Source: an uncultured Ruminococcus sp. (GTDB lineage: Bacteria; Bacillota; Clostridia; Oscillospirales; Ruminococcaceae). From it: a DNA stretch of 15,812 nt. The notes beneath the pieces are model-generated. The model ran no database searches and had not been told where the DNA came from. It saw only the letters and a program-made list of their open reading frames with translations. Positions 1-15,812 of this stretch are shown here, piece after piece. Each line of letters opens with the position of its first letter. The stretch's first letter is position 1. The stretch is from positions 1 through 15,812 of the forward strand of contig CAMCOJ010000012.1 in the NCBI GenBank assembly GCA_945876405.1. The letters run 5' to 3'. Both the position numbers and the translations under genes were made by a program.

Positions 1-45
1 GATTTCTGCCTGTCTCGTGGGCTCGGAGATGTGTATAAGAGACAG
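1..45. other. Nextera sequencing adapter, not genomic
   Basis: These bases match the Illumina Nextera transposase adapter: the tail of the P7 oligo, an 8-base index (TTCTGCCT, read as AGGCAGAA), the read-2 primer site, and the 19-base Tn5 mosaic end finishing in AGAGACAG at 45. The same sequence occurs inverted at the right end. It is a library artefact that the assembler kept. It supplies a false GTG start at 31, so the first five residues read from there (M-Y-K-R-Q) do not belong to the adjoining protein. Confidence 0.98.
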
Positions 46-806: not shown

Positions 807-3800
807 TTATTTTTTAACACCAAGCCAGTTAGTTACCCTTGAGATATACTGTCTGAGATGAGCAAGGTCAGCAAGATTTACAGCTCCGTCTCCTGATACA
901 TCGGCAGCCAGTTTCTGTGCTTCTGTATCAAACGGAATTTTGTCTGCGAGATGAATAGCAAGTATTGAGAGGTCTGTTACATCCACAACACCATTGTCGT
1001 TGAGATCGCCGTACTTAAAGCTTACTTCATCCTTAACTGTTGTAGTAGTAACATTAGAAGCTACTGTAGTTGTTGTAGTTACAGGAGGAGCCTGTGTTAC
1101 TGTTGTTGTAATCGGGTCTGAAGGTTCCACTGCAGGTGGTGTTGCAGGATTTGTACTCTTAACGAAGTGGGCTCCCATAGATGCATATTTGCTTCCTGAA
1201 GCTGTCTGATAAAGTCCTTCTGTCCAGATTGAACCGTCTGCATTTCTCCAGATCTTGTGGAAATCTGCCCCCTGCTCAGGTGCTTTTCCATACTTTTGAA
1301 AATCTGATGCTGCAGGACCTGCAGAAAGCTTTGTTCCTATCTTTGCACCGTTAGTTACATCTGTCTTTGCATCTACCTGATAGTAGCCGCTGTTGTAGTA
1401 TACACCGTTTTCATATGTGCCGACAAACTTATCATTTGAAGCAGATGCATTGAGCTTGCTGTCAGACAGAGCTACTGATGCGTCATAAACTGACATCATA
1501 TTCTTAAAGTCACAACCGTCATCTGTGCAACGGTAAAGTGAGAAGTTAGGCTTACCCTTGCCTTCCATGTTGTTGTTAAAGGAAGTGCAGTTTGTAAGTT
1601 TGTCAAGCTTCGGATTGTTGTTGTCTGTAAATCCGCAGTGGAGGTTTTCAAATGCAAGACAGTTTTCCACTACATGAGGCGAACCCACACCTGAACCGCC
1701 AAGCTTGAATCCGTTACCGTCGCAGTCACCGTATCCTTCACCGAATTCTGTAAATCCGTTTCTGAAAGCGATACTGTTCTTGATTGTAACTATTCCTATC
1801 GGACCTGTTTCTGTTTTTGCGTAGAGATCCCAACCGTCGTCAGAGTTATTATATGCCATACATCCGTCAAATACATTTCCCGGACCGCATGTTAGCTTTG
1901 CAGCAAATCCGTCTGCGTTTTCCATAGTCGCATCATCACAGTTATTCTTTGATGTACAGTTAAGAATAAGGTTGTTTGACGGCCATGCATCGATTGTTGC
2001 TGCTGATGTATCAAAACGTGAAATCTGGAGACCTGTATCCTGATTATCGTTGAATACCATCATTTCAATTCTGTTGTTATTGCCGGCGAGGAGCATACCG
2101 TTGTCCCCTGCCTTTGTAATTTCAAAACCGTAGAAATGCCAGTATGAGCCTGCAAGAACAAATCCTCTGTTTGAAGGAGCAGTAGCCTGACCTGTGAAGT
2201 CGAACTTTACATTTGCACCAGGATAAGCTGCGATTGTCTTGTATGCACCCTGCTTACCACTGTTGTCCTTATCAATAATTATTGTCTCGGTAAAACTGTA
2301 TGTACCTTCGAGGAGGTAAATCATTCCGCCTGCCGGCACTGCCTTTATTGCTGATAAAACGCCTGTCGGGCTGTTTATACTCTTGCCGTCACCTGTTCCT
2401 GTCGGTGAACAGTAGATTACATTTTCACCTGAAACCGGTGCATTTGTTACTATCGGCTGAGTTGCCGATGAAGCCTGTGTAGTCTGCTGAGGTGCTGTAA
2501 CAGAAGAAACTGTTGTTGTAACCGAAGGAGCAGGTGTTGTCACTGCAGGAGGTGCTGAATTATCTTCCTTAAATCCGCTGCCTATTGCAACAACTGAACC
2601 CTTATAGCTTGTAAGAGCTGCCTTAAGTTCTGTGTTTACCGCATAACTTTCATCATCAACTGCATTGTTGAACTGCCACTTGAAATCGCCGCCGTCAACA
2701 CGTCCTGCCTTCGCAGTCACTACTGACGGAACATCCTCCGGCTTATCAGCTGTGTAACTGTACATTACTGATGAAGTATCAAAGTTATTGTATGATGTAC
2801 CTCCGGAAACTGCCTTTACATCTGAAGGAACAGTGTCCTTTGCAGCTGAAACTTCATATGCATCAAAGCTTGTACTGTTTTCCTTGTATGTGATATAGCT
2901 TTCAGCATCCTTTATGATATTGTTATACGCCTTGATAACGCCGCCTGTTTCTCCTGAGAATGTACCTTCACCAAGAGCATCAGTTCCCTGACCTGAACTC
3001 ATCATTGGATTCTTGCAGGCTCTGAAGTAGTTGTTTTCAACAAAAGCTGACGCACCCATTGTTACACCTACACCGTATTTTGCATTTCCGTCAAAGTAGT
3101 TGTTGTAGATGTGAACTGAACATGTTCTGATTCTCGGATGACGTGAATCAGAATGATCATACCAGTTGTGGTGATATGTGATATAGTTTTCTGTGGTTTC
3201 ACTCTTCATTCCCTGGAGGTTGCATTTTCCGTTATCCCAGAAGTGGTTATATGAGTGAGTAACAAATGTTGACTTCTTTGTGTCGAGAGCACCGTCACCC
3301 TTTACCTGATCCGCATCTGAACCTGCATCACCGTAGAAGAAGTCGCAGTTATGTACCCATATATGATCATTAGCCTGCTGGAGCCCGCAGTTGTCACCCT
3401 CTGAACTGTTGCAGTTCATAAAGCCGATATTTCTTACTTCAACGTTTGAACTGTTCTTCATAACAAGTCCGAAGCCATTGAACACTGCGTCATTTCCGAT
3501 ACCTTCAATGGTAAGGCCAGCCTTTACAGTGTCAACCATAAGGTCACCCTTCGGCATATTTGCAGGGTCTGTGATATTGCCGATAACTCTTACGCAGAGC
3601 GGTCTCTTTTCCTTGCCCTTCTTATATCCTGTTATAATATTCTGAACACCTGTAACTGTTGTCACACCGCTTCCTGAATCTATATCAGCTGTGACTTTGT
3701 CCTTGTTTTCTTCAGTTACATAAATCACTACTGCATCTGACTTAAGTGTACCGTCTTCATTGTATGCCCCTGAAGATGTACCGTTCACAAAGCCAAATCC

Positions 3801-4199
3801 TGATCTGTCATGTGCGTACGCTGTAGCCTTTGCTTCAGCAGCTTTTGAAGAGTCTTCCTTGCCGTTTATTATCGGAACTATCTTCATTGTGTGATCACCG
3901 GCTTTTAAACCAGGAGCATCTGCTCTCATATATCCGGTGTACTGTCTGATAAGCATTGAATCAATCTGATTTCCGTCAACATATACGTTATAACCTGTTG
4001 CGCCGGTAACAGATGTCCACGTTGCATACATACCTTCACCGAATCCTGCTGAGCTCTGAACCTTTACACTTGCTTCAGCTGCATAAACTGTGCTGATTCC
4101 GTCTGCTGGTGTAAAATCCGCTCCTGCAAATGATGAAAATCCTGACATCATCATTGCTGCTGCAAGAAAACAACATGTAAATCTAGCTGATTTGTTCAT
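807..4199 (-). CDS. Bimodular pectate lyase PL1-PL9 with dockerin
   Basis: A secreted cellulosomal enzyme of 1130 residues that should cleave (poly)galacturonan by beta-elimination with two catalytic modules. Order: signal peptide (about 1-41, likely cut near VYA-AEA); fibronectin-III-like module (about 43-130); PL1 beta-helix (about 133-440); Thr/Pro linker (about 548-590); PL9 beta-helix (about 592-1012); second Thr-rich linker (1017-1058); dockerin (1062-1125) with loops DLNDNGVVDVTD and DVSGDGAVNLAD. In PL1, DGALD (302-306), K325 and RHPRIR (353-358) match the calcium and Lys/Arg positions of PelC-type lyases; R353 is the probable catalytic base. In PL9, D763, D787, D788 and D791 reproduce the spacing of the four calcium-binding Asp of Dickeya Pel9A, and K832 in GNGFKLGG is the likely catalytic Lys. 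The ATG is preceded by GGAGGA at 4207-4212. Divergent from an AraC-type regulator, its likely controller (inferred). Confidence 0.95.
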   Translation of the reverse strand: MNKSARFTCCFLAAAMMMSGFSSFAGADFTPADGISTVYAAEASVKVQSSAGFGEGMYATWTSVTGATGYNVYVDGNQIDSMLIRQYTGYMRADAPGLKAGDHTMKIVPIINGKEDSSKAAEAKATAYAHDRSGFGFVNGTSSGAYNEDGTLKSDAVVIYVTEENKDKVTADIDSGSGVTTVTGVQNIITGYKKGKEKRPLCVRVIGNITDPANMPKGDLMVDTVKAGLTIEGIGNDAVFNGFGLVMKNSSNVEVRNIGFMNCNSSEGDNCGLQQANDHIWVHNCDFFYGDAGSDADQVKGDGALDTKKSTFVTHSYNHFWDNGKCNLQGMKSETTENYITYHHNWYDHSDSRHPRIRTCSVHIYNNYFDGNAKYGVGVTMGASAFVENNYFRACKNPMMSSGQGTDALGEGTFSGETGGVIKAYNNIIKDAESYITYKENSTSFDAYEVSAAKDTVPSDVKAVSGGTSYNNFDTSSVMYSYTADKPEDVPSVVTAKAGRVDGGDFKWQFNNAVDDESYAVNTELKAALTSYKGSVVAIGSGFKEDNSAPPAVTTPAPSVTTTVSSVTAPQQTTQASSATQPIVTNAPVSGENVIYCSPTGTGDGKSINSPTGVLSAIKAVPAGGMIYLLEGTYSFTETIIIDKDNSGKQGAYKTIAAYPGANVKFDFTGQATAPSNRGFVLAGSYWHFYGFEITKAGDNGMLLAGNNNRIEMMVFNDNQDTGLQISRFDTSAATIDAWPSNNLILNCTSKNNCDDATMENADGFAAKLTCGPGNVFDGCMAYNNSDDGWDLYAKTETGPIGIVTIKNSIAFRNGFTEFGEGYGDCDGNGFKLGGSGVGSPHVVENCLAFENLHCGFTDNNNPKLDKLTNCTSFNNNMEGKGKPNFSLYRCTDDGCDFKNMMSVYDASVALSDSKLNASASNDKFVGTYENGVYYNSGYYQVDAKTDVTNGAKIGTKLSAGPAASDFQKYGKAPEQGADFHKIWRNADGSIWTEGLYQTASGSKYASMGAHFVKSTNPATPPAVEPSDPITTTVTQAPPVTTTTTVASNVTTTTVKDEVSFKYGDLNDNGVVDVTDLSILAIHLADKIPFDTEAQKLAADVSGDGAVNLADLAHLRQYISRVTNWLGVKK

Positions 4200-12037: not shown

Positions 12038-13372
12038 TCAGTAAAGCTTTGCTTCAAGCGCTGCCTTCTTGTCTTCGTAACCAGGCTTGCCAAGAAGTGC
12101 AAACATGTTAGCCTTATAGCTTTCAACACCCGGCTGATTGAAAGGATTTACACCGAGAAGGTATCCTGAAACTGCACATGCCTTTTCAAAGAAGTAAATC
12201 ATATAACCTGTACTGAATTCGGATGTGTCTTCAAGTTCAAGAACGATATTCGGAACACCGCCTTCTGTATGAGCGATGATTGTGCCTTCCTGGGCTTTTC
12301 TGTTTACTACGGACATATTCTGGTTTGTAAGGAAGTTAAGTCCATCAAGGTTTTCAGCATCGTCCTCGAGGAAGAAATCCTGCTGCGGCTTCTTAATATC
12401 CATAACTGTTTCAAACATAATTCTTGAACCGTCCTGAATGAACTGTCCCATCGAGTGGAGGTCTGTTGAGAATGTTACAGCTGACGGGAAAAGTCCCTTG
12501 TTGTCCTTGCCTTCACTTTCGCCGAAGAGCTGTTTGTACCATTCGGACATCATTGTAAAACTTGGATCATATGAAACAAGAAGTTCAATACTCTTACCTT
12601 TTCTGTTAAGAATGTTTCTGTAAGCAGCGTACTTGTAGCAGTCATTGTTGTCAAAGTCTGCCTGATAGTCTTCACGAGCCTTTGCCGCACCGGCCATAAG
12701 AGCGTCTATATCACAGCCTGCTGCAGCAATCGGAAGAAGACCAACAGCCGTAAGAACTGAGAATCTGCCGCCTACGTCATCCGGTACAACGAATGTTTCA
12801 TAGCCTTCTGTATCAGCAAGTGACTTGAGTGTTCCCTTTGCCTTGTCTGTTGTACAGAAGATTCTTTCCTTTGCGCCTTCCTTGCCGTACTTTTCCTCAA
12901 CCATCTTTCTGAATACTCTGAAAGCAAGAGCAGGTTCAGTTGTTGTACCTGACTTGGAAATTACGTTTACAGAGAAATCTTTATCCTTGCAGATGGAAAT
13001 AACCTGATTGAGGTATGAAGGACTGATGTTGTTTCCAACAAAATATATGTCAGGTGTGTCCTTGCTGAGATTGTTGTAGAACGGTGACTTGATAAGCTCG
13101 ATAACAGCTCTTGCACCGAGATACGAACCACCGATACCAATAACGATGAGAACATCGGAATTTTTCTTTATCTTTTCAGCAGCAGCCTTAATTCTTGTGA
13201 ATTCTTCCTTATCATAGTTTACAGGAAGATCAAGCCAGCCTAAAAAGTCATTTCCGAGACCCTTCCTGCTGTGAAGAAGTTCTGCAGCTGTTTCAACCTG
13301 TGGTTTAATACCTGCAATTTCGTCACTGTTTACGAAACTATCAAGATATTTTGAGTTTAATTTAAGCGTCAT
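12038..13372 (-). CDS. pgi: Glucose-6-phosphate isomerase
   Basis: A cytosolic glycolytic enzyme interconverting glucose 6-phosphate and fructose 6-phosphate. It has 444 residues, typical of the shorter Firmicutes form. Visible are [11 protein letters not shown] (79-89), the phosphate-binding SKSGTTTE (139-146), [15 protein letters not shown] (198-212), the catalytic Glu region FGESEGKD (283-290), and the C-terminal signature [14 protein letters not shown] ending in the catalytic Lys (K420). I place the start at the ATG at 13372 because GGAGGT (13379-13384) sits seven bases upstream. An ATG five codons earlier (13387) overlaps that Shine-Dalgarno sequence. The gene lies about 110 bases after the carboxypeptidase-like gene; I found no confident promoter or terminator in that gap. 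Confidence 0.97.
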
Positions 13373-13481
13373 AGTATGGACCTCCATAAAATATTTACTT
13401 ACCTTATATCAATTTTACTATATTATGATTTCTTTTGCAAGCAGATAATTTATTATTATTCAAACTCTACAATATAATCTT

Positions 13482-14624
13482 TTATTCTTTGAACATTTTT
13501 ACTATTATTTTTCTAAAAGATTTCCGAAATGTCTTTTCCGGAACAGAATCTGCAGCTATAAGTGATGTTTCATACAAAAGAGTTCTGTCAAGGTAAAATG
13601 CCAGTGTACCTATTTTCTGCCCCTTTCTGACCGGAGCTTTTATATAGTCCGGGCTTACTGTTACAATTCTCAGAGTATCTTCCGTTCCTTTCGGTACGAC
13701 AAGAGTACTGAGATTCTCAGCATTCAGTATTACTGAATCTTCAGTCCCCTGTTTTACTTTCAGAGGTTTCATATATTCAGATGAAAAACCCGGTATTATG
13801 GTCTTGTATCCTGAAATTCCCTTCTTAAGAAGCTGTTTGGCAAAGTCAAAACGTTCTTCACTGTCCTCACTGCCAAGAACCACTGCTGTATATTTTCCTC
13901 CGCTCCTGTGTGCGGAAACTGCAGCACAGTATCCGGATTGTTCTGTATGCCACGCCTTTACTCCGTTTACTCCTTCGTAGGTTCTTATAAGAGTGTTCTC
14001 ATTTACCGTCTCTGTTTTGCCTCCTCTGACTGTATCACGCCATGTTAGCATTATTTCACGGAGTTCTTCATGCGAGGCTATTTCAGATGTGAGAAGTGCA
14101 GTATCAAAGGCAGTTGTATACTGACTGTCATCATCAATAGCATAGGGAGATGTAAAAAAAGTATTTTTCATCCCGAGCTCAGCCGCCCTGAAATTCATAA
14201 GACATGTGAATTCATCACATCCTCCGGCTATAGTTTCCGCAAAAACAACTGCTGCGTCACCGGCATTTCCTATAAGAAGAGCTTTCATCAGTTCACCGGC
14301 CGTTATTTTTTCACCTGTATCCAGCCATATTACCGCACCGGTCGCAGTATGAGCAGCTTCAGAGGCAGTAAGTTCCGTCTCCATGGAAATTTCACCGGAT
14401 TCAATATATTCGGCTGCTATAAGTGCTGTCATAAGTTTGTTAAGAGCACCTGAAGGAACTCTCTTATCCGAATTGTACTCAGAAATAACATAACCTGTTT
14501 CCTGTTCCGTAAGAATCCATGTGCTTATCTCACAGCCGGGTTTTGCTGCCTTTGCATATACAGGACATGAAAACCCCAGTGTCACTGCACATACTGCAGA
14601 AAATATTTTTTTTATACCAGTCAT
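13482..14624 (-). CDS. D,D-carboxypeptidase homologue lacking catalytic motifs
   Basis: A 380-residue exported protein with the DacF/PBP5 (peptidase S11) layout: signal peptide (about 1-27, cut near VYAKA), transpeptidase-like domain (about 30-272), PBP5 C-terminal-type beta domain (about 277-360) and a basic amphipathic tail. Such enzymes remove the terminal D-Ala from peptidoglycan stem peptides, but every catalytic motif is altered here. SxxK reads A60-L-N-K63, in PSGALNKLMT. SxN reads N120-A-G122, in IGNAGDAAV. KTG reads K223-A-W225, in NGVKAWHTEQSGYC. The surrounding framework (TWRDTVRGG, LIRTYEGVNG, GMKNTFF) is well kept and the frame is open, so this looks like a pseudoenzyme rather than a decaying gene. 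The start is the ATG at 14624, with GGGAG ten bases upstream; a GTG at 14633 is too close to it. Confidence 0.85.
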   Translation of the reverse strand: MTGIKKIFSAVCAVTLGFSCPVYAKAAKPGCEISTWILTEQETGYVISEYNSDKRVPSGALNKLMTALIAAEYIESGEISMETELTASEAAHTATGAVIWLDTGEKITAGELMKALLIGNAGDAAVVFAETIAGGCDEFTCLMNFRAAELGMKNTFFTSPYAIDDDSQYTTAFDTALLTSEIASHEELREIMLTWRDTVRGGKTETVNENTLIRTYEGVNGVKAWHTEQSGYCAAVSAHRSGGKYTAVVLGSEDSEERFDFAKQLLKKGISGYKTIIPGFSSEYMKPLKVKQGTEDSVILNAENLSTLVVPKGTEDTLRIVTVSPDYIKAPVRKGQKIGTLAFYLDRTLLYETSLIAADSVPEKTFRKSFRKIIVKMFKE

Positions 14625-14658
14625 ATTCAACACACTCCCTGTATTTATACATGTTAGT

Positions 14659-14688
14659 ATTATACAGGGTTTTTATCTTTGTTATGAA
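14659..14688 (-). promoter_or_regulatory. Promoter of carboxypeptidase-like gene
   Basis: On the minus strand, -35 TTCATA (14688-14683), an 18-base spacer and -10 TATAAT (14664-14659). It begins right after the U-tract of the upstream terminator and 35 bases before the ATG, so the gene is probably its own transcription unit. Confidence 0.65.
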
Positions 14689-14689
14689 T

Positions 14690-14717
14690 AAAAAAAGCAG
14701 ATGCGTACTGCATCTGC
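14690..14717 (-). terminator. Rho-independent terminator after HPr-like gene
   Basis: GCAGATGC (14697-14704) and GCATCTGC (14710-14717) form a perfect eight-pair stem with a five-base loop. On the minus strand seven T follow (14696-14690). It separates the HPr-like gene from the carboxypeptidase-like gene. Confidence 0.92.
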
Positions 14718-14736: not shown

Positions 14737-14964
14737 TTATGAAGCAACAAAAGGCTTTACCGCTTCGATGAACTTCGCATCATCTGTTTCTGCGTTCATC
14801 TTTACCGGCTTGTCAAGGTCAAGACTGAAAATGCCCATTATTGACTTTGCGTCAACAACATATCTGCCTGAAACCAGTTCAATGTCAAAATCAAAACCGG
14901 AAACAAGATTTACAAATTTTTTTACTTCTTCAACGCTTTTCAAAAGTATATTCTCCGAATACAT
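14737..14964 (-). CDS. HPr-like protein lacking the phospho-histidine
   Basis: A 75-residue cytosolic protein with an HPr-like C-terminal half: SGRYVVDAKSIMGIFSLDL (32-50) lines up with the HPr region around regulatory Ser46, which is S41 here. The first half does not carry the active-site GxHARPA. An ungapped alignment back from S41 puts S10-VEEV where HPr has H15-ARPA, so the phosphotransfer His, Arg and Pro are all missing. It therefore cannot relay phosphate in the PTS in the normal way, but could be phosphorylated on Ser by an HPr kinase and act as a regulator, as Bacillus Crh does (Q15, S46). That role is inferred. The start ATG at 14964 has GGAGGG upstream (14972-14977); a longer ORF to 15111 reads through the promoter. 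It has its own promoter and terminator. Confidence 0.75.
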   Translation of the reverse strand: MYSENILLKSVEEVKKFVNLVSGFDFDIELVSGRYVVDAKSIMGIFSLDLDKPVKMNAETDDAKFIEAVKPFVAS

Positions 14965-15007
14965 CAAAATACCCTCCGTCAGAATCAGATTGTTTTTTAC
15001 TCTAAAA

Positions 15008-15036
15008 ATCATAACACCAAAAATATTAATAGTCAA
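15008..15036 (-). promoter_or_regulatory. Promoter of HPr-like gene
   Basis: On the minus strand, -35 TTGACT (15036-15031), 17 bases, -10 TATGAT (15013-15008); each box has five of six consensus bases. Its -35 lies four bases from the -35 of the divergent mtaB promoter. Confidence 0.82.
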
Positions 15037-15040
15037 GTCA

Positions 15041-15069
15041 TTGAAATTTTTTTGTAAGTTTAGTATAAT
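15041..15069 (+). promoter_or_regulatory. Promoter of mtaB
   Basis: TTGAAA (15041-15046), 17 bases, TATAAT (15064-15069). Transcription should start near 15076, with a leader of about 55 bases to the TTG start at 15132. It is back-to-back with the HPr-like promoter. Confidence 0.85.
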
Positions 15070-15131
15070 TGAATTACAGAAGAATTTACACAGTAAATGC
15101 AGTATGCACAACCGGAAAAGGAGACATTCTA

Positions 15132-15766: not shown

Positions 15767-15812
15767 CTGTCTCTTATACACATCTCCGAGCCCACGAGAC
15801 AGGCAGAAATCT
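15767..15812. other. Nextera sequencing adapter, not genomic
   Basis: Starts with the 19-base Tn5 mosaic end (CTGTCTCTTATACACATCT), then the read-2 primer site, the i7 index AGGCAGAA and the start of the P7 sequence. It is the exact inverse of bases 1-45 plus one base. The mtaB reading frame is genuine only up to 15766. Confidence 0.98.

Follow-up and report, generated by a model that had tools for sequence, protein, structure and literature searches.

Catalytic motifs are lost from an S11 carboxypeptidase

What is the job of a D,D-carboxypeptidase that has lost the residues for cutting and still keeps an open frame? The question is posed by a gene in the window, i.e. the whole stretch of 15,812 nucleotides from an uncultured Ruminococcus sp. 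that was analyzed here. The reading frame codes for 380 amino acids counted from ATG; an alternative GTG start upstream would give 383. The protein scored 148.5 bits against PF00768 (Peptidase S11; cut-off 27.6) and 50.1 bits against PF07943 (PBP5_C; cut-off 21.2). In an AF2 model (pLDDT 93.9) the S11 fold was preserved; the matches listed in the fold comparison were chains of S11 type and a single designed protein built on the S11 scaffold. It is, then, a protein with a PBP5-type carboxypeptidase fold and a PBP5_C domain, and the preliminary description was correct in stating that open frame, framework and C-terminal domain are retained. The features of the locus are:

13482..14624, reverse strand: pseudo-DD-carboxypeptidase, S11 with PBP5_C; possible GTG start at 14633
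14436..14447, reverse strand: SxxK site, A60-L-N-K63 (structure alignment; Ser gone, Lys retained)
14259..14267, reverse strand: SxN site, N120-A-G122 (structure alignment)
13950..13958, reverse strand: KTG site, K223-A-W225 (structure alignment; Lys retained)
14556..14624, reverse strand: signal peptide, approximate end (model helix 4-18 and hydrophobic N-terminus, by eye)
13485..13529, reverse strand: Lys/Arg-rich C-terminal helix, residues 366-380 (model helix 366-379)
14625..14690, reverse strand: own leader of the S11 gene, behind a hairpin and T-run 3' of the HPr-like gene
14737..14964, reverse strand: upstream neighbor, presumably HPr-like from its sequence; ATG at 14964 (listed as 14737-15111 from TTG)
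12038..13387, reverse strand: downstream neighbor, which from its sequence we take to be pgi (glucose-6-phosphate isomerase; synteny)

The motif positions were assigned by alignment to solved PBP5-type structures. A catalytic D,D-carboxypeptidase has the nucleophilic serine of SxxK, an SxN and a KTG (or KSG). Here the serine is replaced by Ala60, SxN reads N120-A-G122 and KTG reads K223-A-W. These are the three sites and readings given in the preliminary description (AxxK, NxG, KAW). Its claim that all three motifs are lost was right for the nucleophile, for both SxN residues and for threonine and glycine of KTG; a refinement concerns K63 and K223, which are retained. The protein differs from the low-molecular-mass PBPs of the S11 family (PBP5, DacA/DacB/DacF) in these residues and keeps only the two lysines. 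The C-terminal helix seen in the model possibly is an amphipathic membrane anchor as in PBP5.

The gene of an independent MAG (L005/G007) is 96% identical and has the same three altered motifs. All seven carriers in the genus, the own genome included, have Asn at the first SxN position and Ala after the KTG lysine. Close relatives with intact SxN and KTG, which would have counted against the preliminary description, were not among these seven. A read error or assembly artefact was ruled out because the losses are common to L005/G007 and the congeners.

The gene occupies a conserved slot

The homologues compared were the best 120 of 405, 666 and 4865 matches, respectively, and the named loci were the best 80 of 122. 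At the named loci a recurrent gene order was HPr - S11 - pgi - ATPase - DUF177 - der - plsY - gpsA (names by eye), with pgi present in 75/80; in some lineages the S11 gene is inverted within this order. We also used a sample of 99 genomes of the window's family, each at least 80% complete, in which a slot-type S11 was defined as the best profile match below 1e-70. Such a gene was found in 85 of the 99 genomes. In 69 of these pgi was no more than 1 kb away, 68 times with the S11 gene directly upstream on the same strand. In five genomes the two genes were 2.8-38 kb apart, and in 11 they were on different contigs or pgi was missing. The S11 gene of the window is one of these orthologues, and its slot between HPr and pgi is conserved.

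The motif loss is shared by a clade

Motifs were read in 78 of the 85 slot-type proteins (G017, G023, G031, G058, G075, G076 and G095 were left out). SxxK, SxN and KTG were all present in 54. In 22, the window included, Asn stood for the SxN serine and KTG was missing; these were single genomes from each of 22 genera. Two proteins had lost KTG alone (G019, G098). In other genera an intact enzyme occupies the same slot.

A tree of 121 rows was calculated with the motif columns omitted and every second named locus taken. The rows that had lost catalysis formed one clade of 62 (SH-aLRT 87, i.e. moderate support at its base, with some long branches) that splits into subclades of 7 and 55 (98 each). 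On this tree the distribution of intact and lost states requires at least three changes. N120 was present in 62/62 rows of the loss clade, where the absence of changes at this position is by construction, and S120 in 56/56 rows outside. The motif loss is ancient and clade-wide, not recent or private; the proposal that orthologues share the altered motifs was borne out across 22 genera in one loss clade and in 7/7 carriers of the genus.

How the individual positions evolved is informative. Outside the loss clade S60 was unchanged in all 56 rows. Within it, position 60 was T in 22 rows, S in 16, Y in 13, H in 7, A in 3 and F in 1, which requires at least 13 changes. K63, D123 and K223 did not change once in the same 62 rows; A224 was present in 58 and H226 in 45. 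A larger loss group of 214 rows was defined by G-N at positions 119-120, was partly gathered with a pattern containing these residues and had duplicates left in. Its uniform S-to-N exchange (214/214) is therefore by construction; this does not apply to the lysines, K63 and K223, each present in 214/214. Position 122 was G in 20 and N in the other 194, A224 was found in 200 and W225 in 10. Position 60 was Ser or Thr in 138 (Ser in 52), Tyr in 46 and Ala in 16; the remaining 14 had V, M, N, H, F or W there. Position 60 drifts and K63, D123 and K223 are constant, so the nucleophile was released from constraint and a polar pocket became fixed in modified form. With G122 and W225, the window protein itself may have a pocket unlike those of its relatives. 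In some relatives residual chemistry might persist, because 52 of the 214 have Ser at the nucleophile position.

The pseudoenzyme gene is under purifying selection

dN/dS was calculated according to NG86 for 35 pairs; 33 were computable and two saturated, values with dS > 1 are rough, and one pair entered twice (G003/G006 is L006/L007). All 33 values were below 1 (range 0.06-0.36), as had been predicted for a pseudoenzyme retained by selection. Pairs within the genus gave 0.12-0.36 (20/21 computable), named pairs 0.06-0.21 (13/14 computable). For the closest pair, G000/G007, dN/dS was 0.121 for the S11 gene, 0.057 for the active paralogue and 0.006 for pgi, and in nearly all comparisons the S11 gene was more divergent than both. 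The gene is under purifying selection that is looser than on its neighbors. In-frame stops were absent from the 22 loss-clade matches and the seven genus genes. A recent pseudogene was excluded on account of the open frames and the dN/dS values.

A separate observation concerned the two genomes L006 and L007. Over approximately 4.7-7.2 kb of the locus a tract of 2.5 kb differs by 12-32%, and the flanks are mostly 95-100% identical. The tract, an allele replacement, covers the end of the upstream gene, HPr and the pseudo-carboxypeptidase. In 9 of the 12 other computable named pairs dS of the S11 gene exceeded that of pgi.

Co-occurrence with SpoIVA

In the genus (11 genomes) the S11 gene was present in 7/7 SpoIVA-positive and 0/4 SpoIVA-negative members. 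The slot was empty in the three SpoIVA-negative congeners in which it was readable (G001, G002, G005): pgi comes after HPr there, without an S11 gene between the two. According to a pgi tree this absence is one loss event. In the sub-clade concerned (G001, G002, G005, G009) SpoIVA, the pseudo-carboxypeptidase and the active paralogue of the L001 type are jointly missing.

In the family sample 81/85 SpoIVA-positive genomes had the slot gene versus 4/14 SpoIVA-negative ones (Fisher p 5e-8, ignoring kinship). Among genomes at least 90% complete the figures were 69/72 versus 0/8 (p 6e-9, ignoring kinship). The SpoIVA-positive genomes without the gene were G033, G066, G072 and G101; the four SpoIVA-negative genomes with it were 83-86% complete. 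Kinship was taken into account using a pgi tree of 51 genomes chosen from 108 (all 17 SpoIVA-negative and 34 SpoIVA-positive), which contained four well-supported independent pairs of SpoIVA-positive and SpoIVA-negative genomes. When all 51 rows were used, an average of 2.5 of the four pairs behaved as expected and 1.4 did not differ (sign test, p 0.25-1); when only the 38 rows at least 90% complete were used, 3.8 of four behaved as expected (p 0.125-0.25). SpoIVA was also present in 40 of 41 loss-clade genomes from the 80 named loci, several of which are in the family sample as well; the exception is an assembly of 1.0 Mb. Cultured strains that have both the gene and SpoIVA are R. flavefaciens ATCC 19208 and Y1. 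This co-occurrence is suggestive of a link between the slot gene and sporulation, and only suggestive because independent losses are few.

S11 paralogues

A separate intact paralogue, the presence of which the preliminary description had left to be checked, exists in the own genome: both L001 and L004 have intact motifs and, by this token, could supply the catalysis. A further type, L003, was found in sporulating and non-sporulating congeners alike; among the latter it was read in G001, G005 and G009, and in G002 it was recognized from its score and the length of its frame.

L003 (own genome, contig C276, 25-1272) together with P0197-P0316, L164, L178 and L181-L184 forms a second family of pseudo-S11 proteins. 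The alignment had 122 rows, i.e. the best 120 of 4865 matches and two own paralogues. KTG was present in 105/122, and in 81/122 the Asn of SxN was Cys. The Ser/Lys pair of SxxK read Q/Q in 32, P/N in 26, H/Q in 9 and S/K in 18 of the 122. The slot-gene pseudoenzymes and the L003 type are both S11 sequences, yet their patterns are opposite: in most L003-type members SxxK is destroyed with Ser and Lys both replaced, while KTG and the SxN serine are mostly retained.

Leader sequences

Leaders were scanned up to 114 bases 5' of the start. The pattern CATANANT, which we take to be a mother-cell -10 box from the Bacillus sigma-E consensus, was present upstream of 53/103 loss-group and 14/37 intact genes versus 4/225 control leaders (pgi 2/75, der 1/52, HPr 1/36, plsY 0/42, gpsA 0/20). 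From the intact set 17 of 54 leaders had been dropped (start missing or fewer than 90 bases), and control leaders ended at the earliest possible start instead of a chosen one. These counts are not to be read as probabilities because the pattern was picked after word counts in the same leaders and the rows are related. In the window's own leader neither CATANANT nor a canonical promoter was found. Of the four one-box patterns, CATANA (63/103 loss-group and 18/37 intact versus 26/225 control leaders) and CATANNNTA (28/103 and 4/37 versus 8/225) were raised as well. CATNNTA was not raised in either set (21/103 and 4/37, the level of shuffled sequences). A first two-box pattern was found in 9/80 named and 1/77 family-sample leaders. 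A looser one, with the start re-set, gave 12/103 in the loss group (shuffles 0.84) and 1/54 among intact genes (0.07). By eye, a TCATA box followed some 14 bases on by a TATA-type box was seen in the congeners G003, G004, G006, G008 and G010. For Clostridioides difficile one report gives CATATTAT as a canonical mother-cell -10 box and ATA-N16-CATATATA for a sigma-E promoter (PMC3789822). As printed there, CATATTAT and CATATATA are similar to the CATANANT pattern, not letter-identical.

Just 5' of the start codon of the window gene (14669-14637) there is an inverted repeat, CCCTGTAT-N17-ATACAGGG, possibly an operator or a hairpin. In G007 each arm has one different base; perfect pairing of the arms is thus not kept.

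A proposed role in spore building

Lost catalysis, retention of the gene and its co-loss with spore genes suggest, at the level of sequence comparison, a non-enzymatic job in spore building. We lean towards a former sporulation D,D-carboxypeptidase that now would act as a non-catalytic binder or adaptor at the cortex. The ancestor would have been an active, sporulation-linked S11 D,D-carboxypeptidase encoded upstream of pgi across the family. Its active site was dismantled in one ancient clade, with SxN Ser turned into Asn, KTG Thr into Ala and the nucleophile set free. The pseudoenzyme would be a product of sporulating cells, probably of the mother cell; it would be exported to the space in which the cortex is built, be anchored there by its C-terminal helix and act without catalysis. 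It might bind nascent stem peptides via K63 and K223, joined in most members (not in the window protein) by N122, or else bind a partner such as an active DacF-type paralogue, and in this manner tune cortex cross-linking. In active PBP5-type enzymes the retained lysines and N122 are substrate contacts; therefore a binder that does not cut is the most economical reading. A sharper version, which we put forward tentatively and consider somewhat less probable than its negation, is that the dead D,D-carboxypeptidases of at least 22 genera are a dedicated non-enzymatic cortex factor in endospore formation that binds uncut stem peptides or the active DacF-type enzyme and sets cross-linking via a re-fixed pocket (K63, N120, K223 and, mostly, A224 and H226) that replaces the catalytic one.

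What else could keep such a gene? It may have a non-catalytic role apart from sporulation, such as wall binding or sensing, and the association with SpoIVA may reflect shared loss in few lineages. The small number of independent losses fits this, as do the eight of 99 genomes that contradict the association, the lack of CATANANT in the window's leader and the post hoc nature of this box elsewhere. However, non-sporulating congeners retained the L003-type S11 (three read, one by score); S11 genes were therefore not lost there at large, and CATANANT occurs upstream of some loss-clade and some intact orthologues. On balance we consider a role apart from sporulation unlikely, yet the most serious competitor of the cortex binder. 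Another catalytic chemistry could also have been kept, in which K63, N120 and K223 cooperate with Thr, Ser, another nucleophile or water to cleave or bind a modified substrate. The invariance of both lysines, N120 throughout the loss clade and Ser or Thr at position 60 in 138/214 would accord with it. A nucleophile, however, would not tolerate at least 13 changes, and position 60 is also Tyr, Ala (as in the window) or one of six further residues; this makes altered chemistry improbable. Least credible is a functionless gene decaying towards loss. Its greater divergence compared to pgi and the active paralogue and its absence from four congeners would be expected of such a gene; zero internal stops, dN/dS of at most 0.36 and pocket lysines that are invariant across 22 genera are not.

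The cortex binder would have both relatives and precedents. In C. difficile, D-Ala-D-Ala carboxypeptidases belong to the sporulation program: sigma G controls dacF (CD1291), and sigma F controls CD2141 (PMC3789822). dacB is listed among stage III-VI sporulation genes (PMC3533761). Like these enzymes as described there, the slot gene appears to track sporulation, and its intact orthologues have canonical motifs; the comparison is drawn from motifs and co-occurrence, and the loss clade differs in lacking the catalytic motifs.

Degenerate LytM proteins such as EnvC and SpoIIQ are non-catalytic relatives of cell-wall hydrolases, and SpoIIQ acts in sporulation. The window protein would resemble them in retaining an enzyme fold for binding or for regulation of wall work; it differs in fold and family, S11 instead of LytM. 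Inactive relatives of wall enzymes are already a known kind. The suggested sporulation link goes beyond the preliminary description. In the open-access literature searched, no paper on an inactive S11 carboxypeptidase turned up, nor one on a dead D,D-carboxypeptidase that is conserved in 22 genera and linked to sporulation. D,D-carboxypeptidases set the cross-linking of the spore cortex and thereby heat resistance and germination. A dead copy in the slot of the enzyme, kept along with SpoIVA, is a natural experiment on whether catalysis and binding are separable, with intact, half-lost and lost orthologues coexisting for one slot. Because the sources name such proteins 'D-alanyl-D-alanine carboxypeptidase' (e.g. 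P0009), annotation-based enzyme counts may be incorrect where this gene is concerned.

Other features of the window

Near both ends of the window (27-45 and 15767-15785) there is an exact copy of a sequence which we take to be a transposon-library adapter; zero copies were expected by chance. The gene at the right end is cut by it. L001 starts with the same sequence, and the L003 protein ends in residues that look like a translation of it. The proteins encoded at 31-741 and 807-4199 both have Thr-rich linkers and dockerin-like ends, and the latter has a pectate-lyase-like body (all by eye). These traits suggest that the two proteins are parts of a cellulosome.
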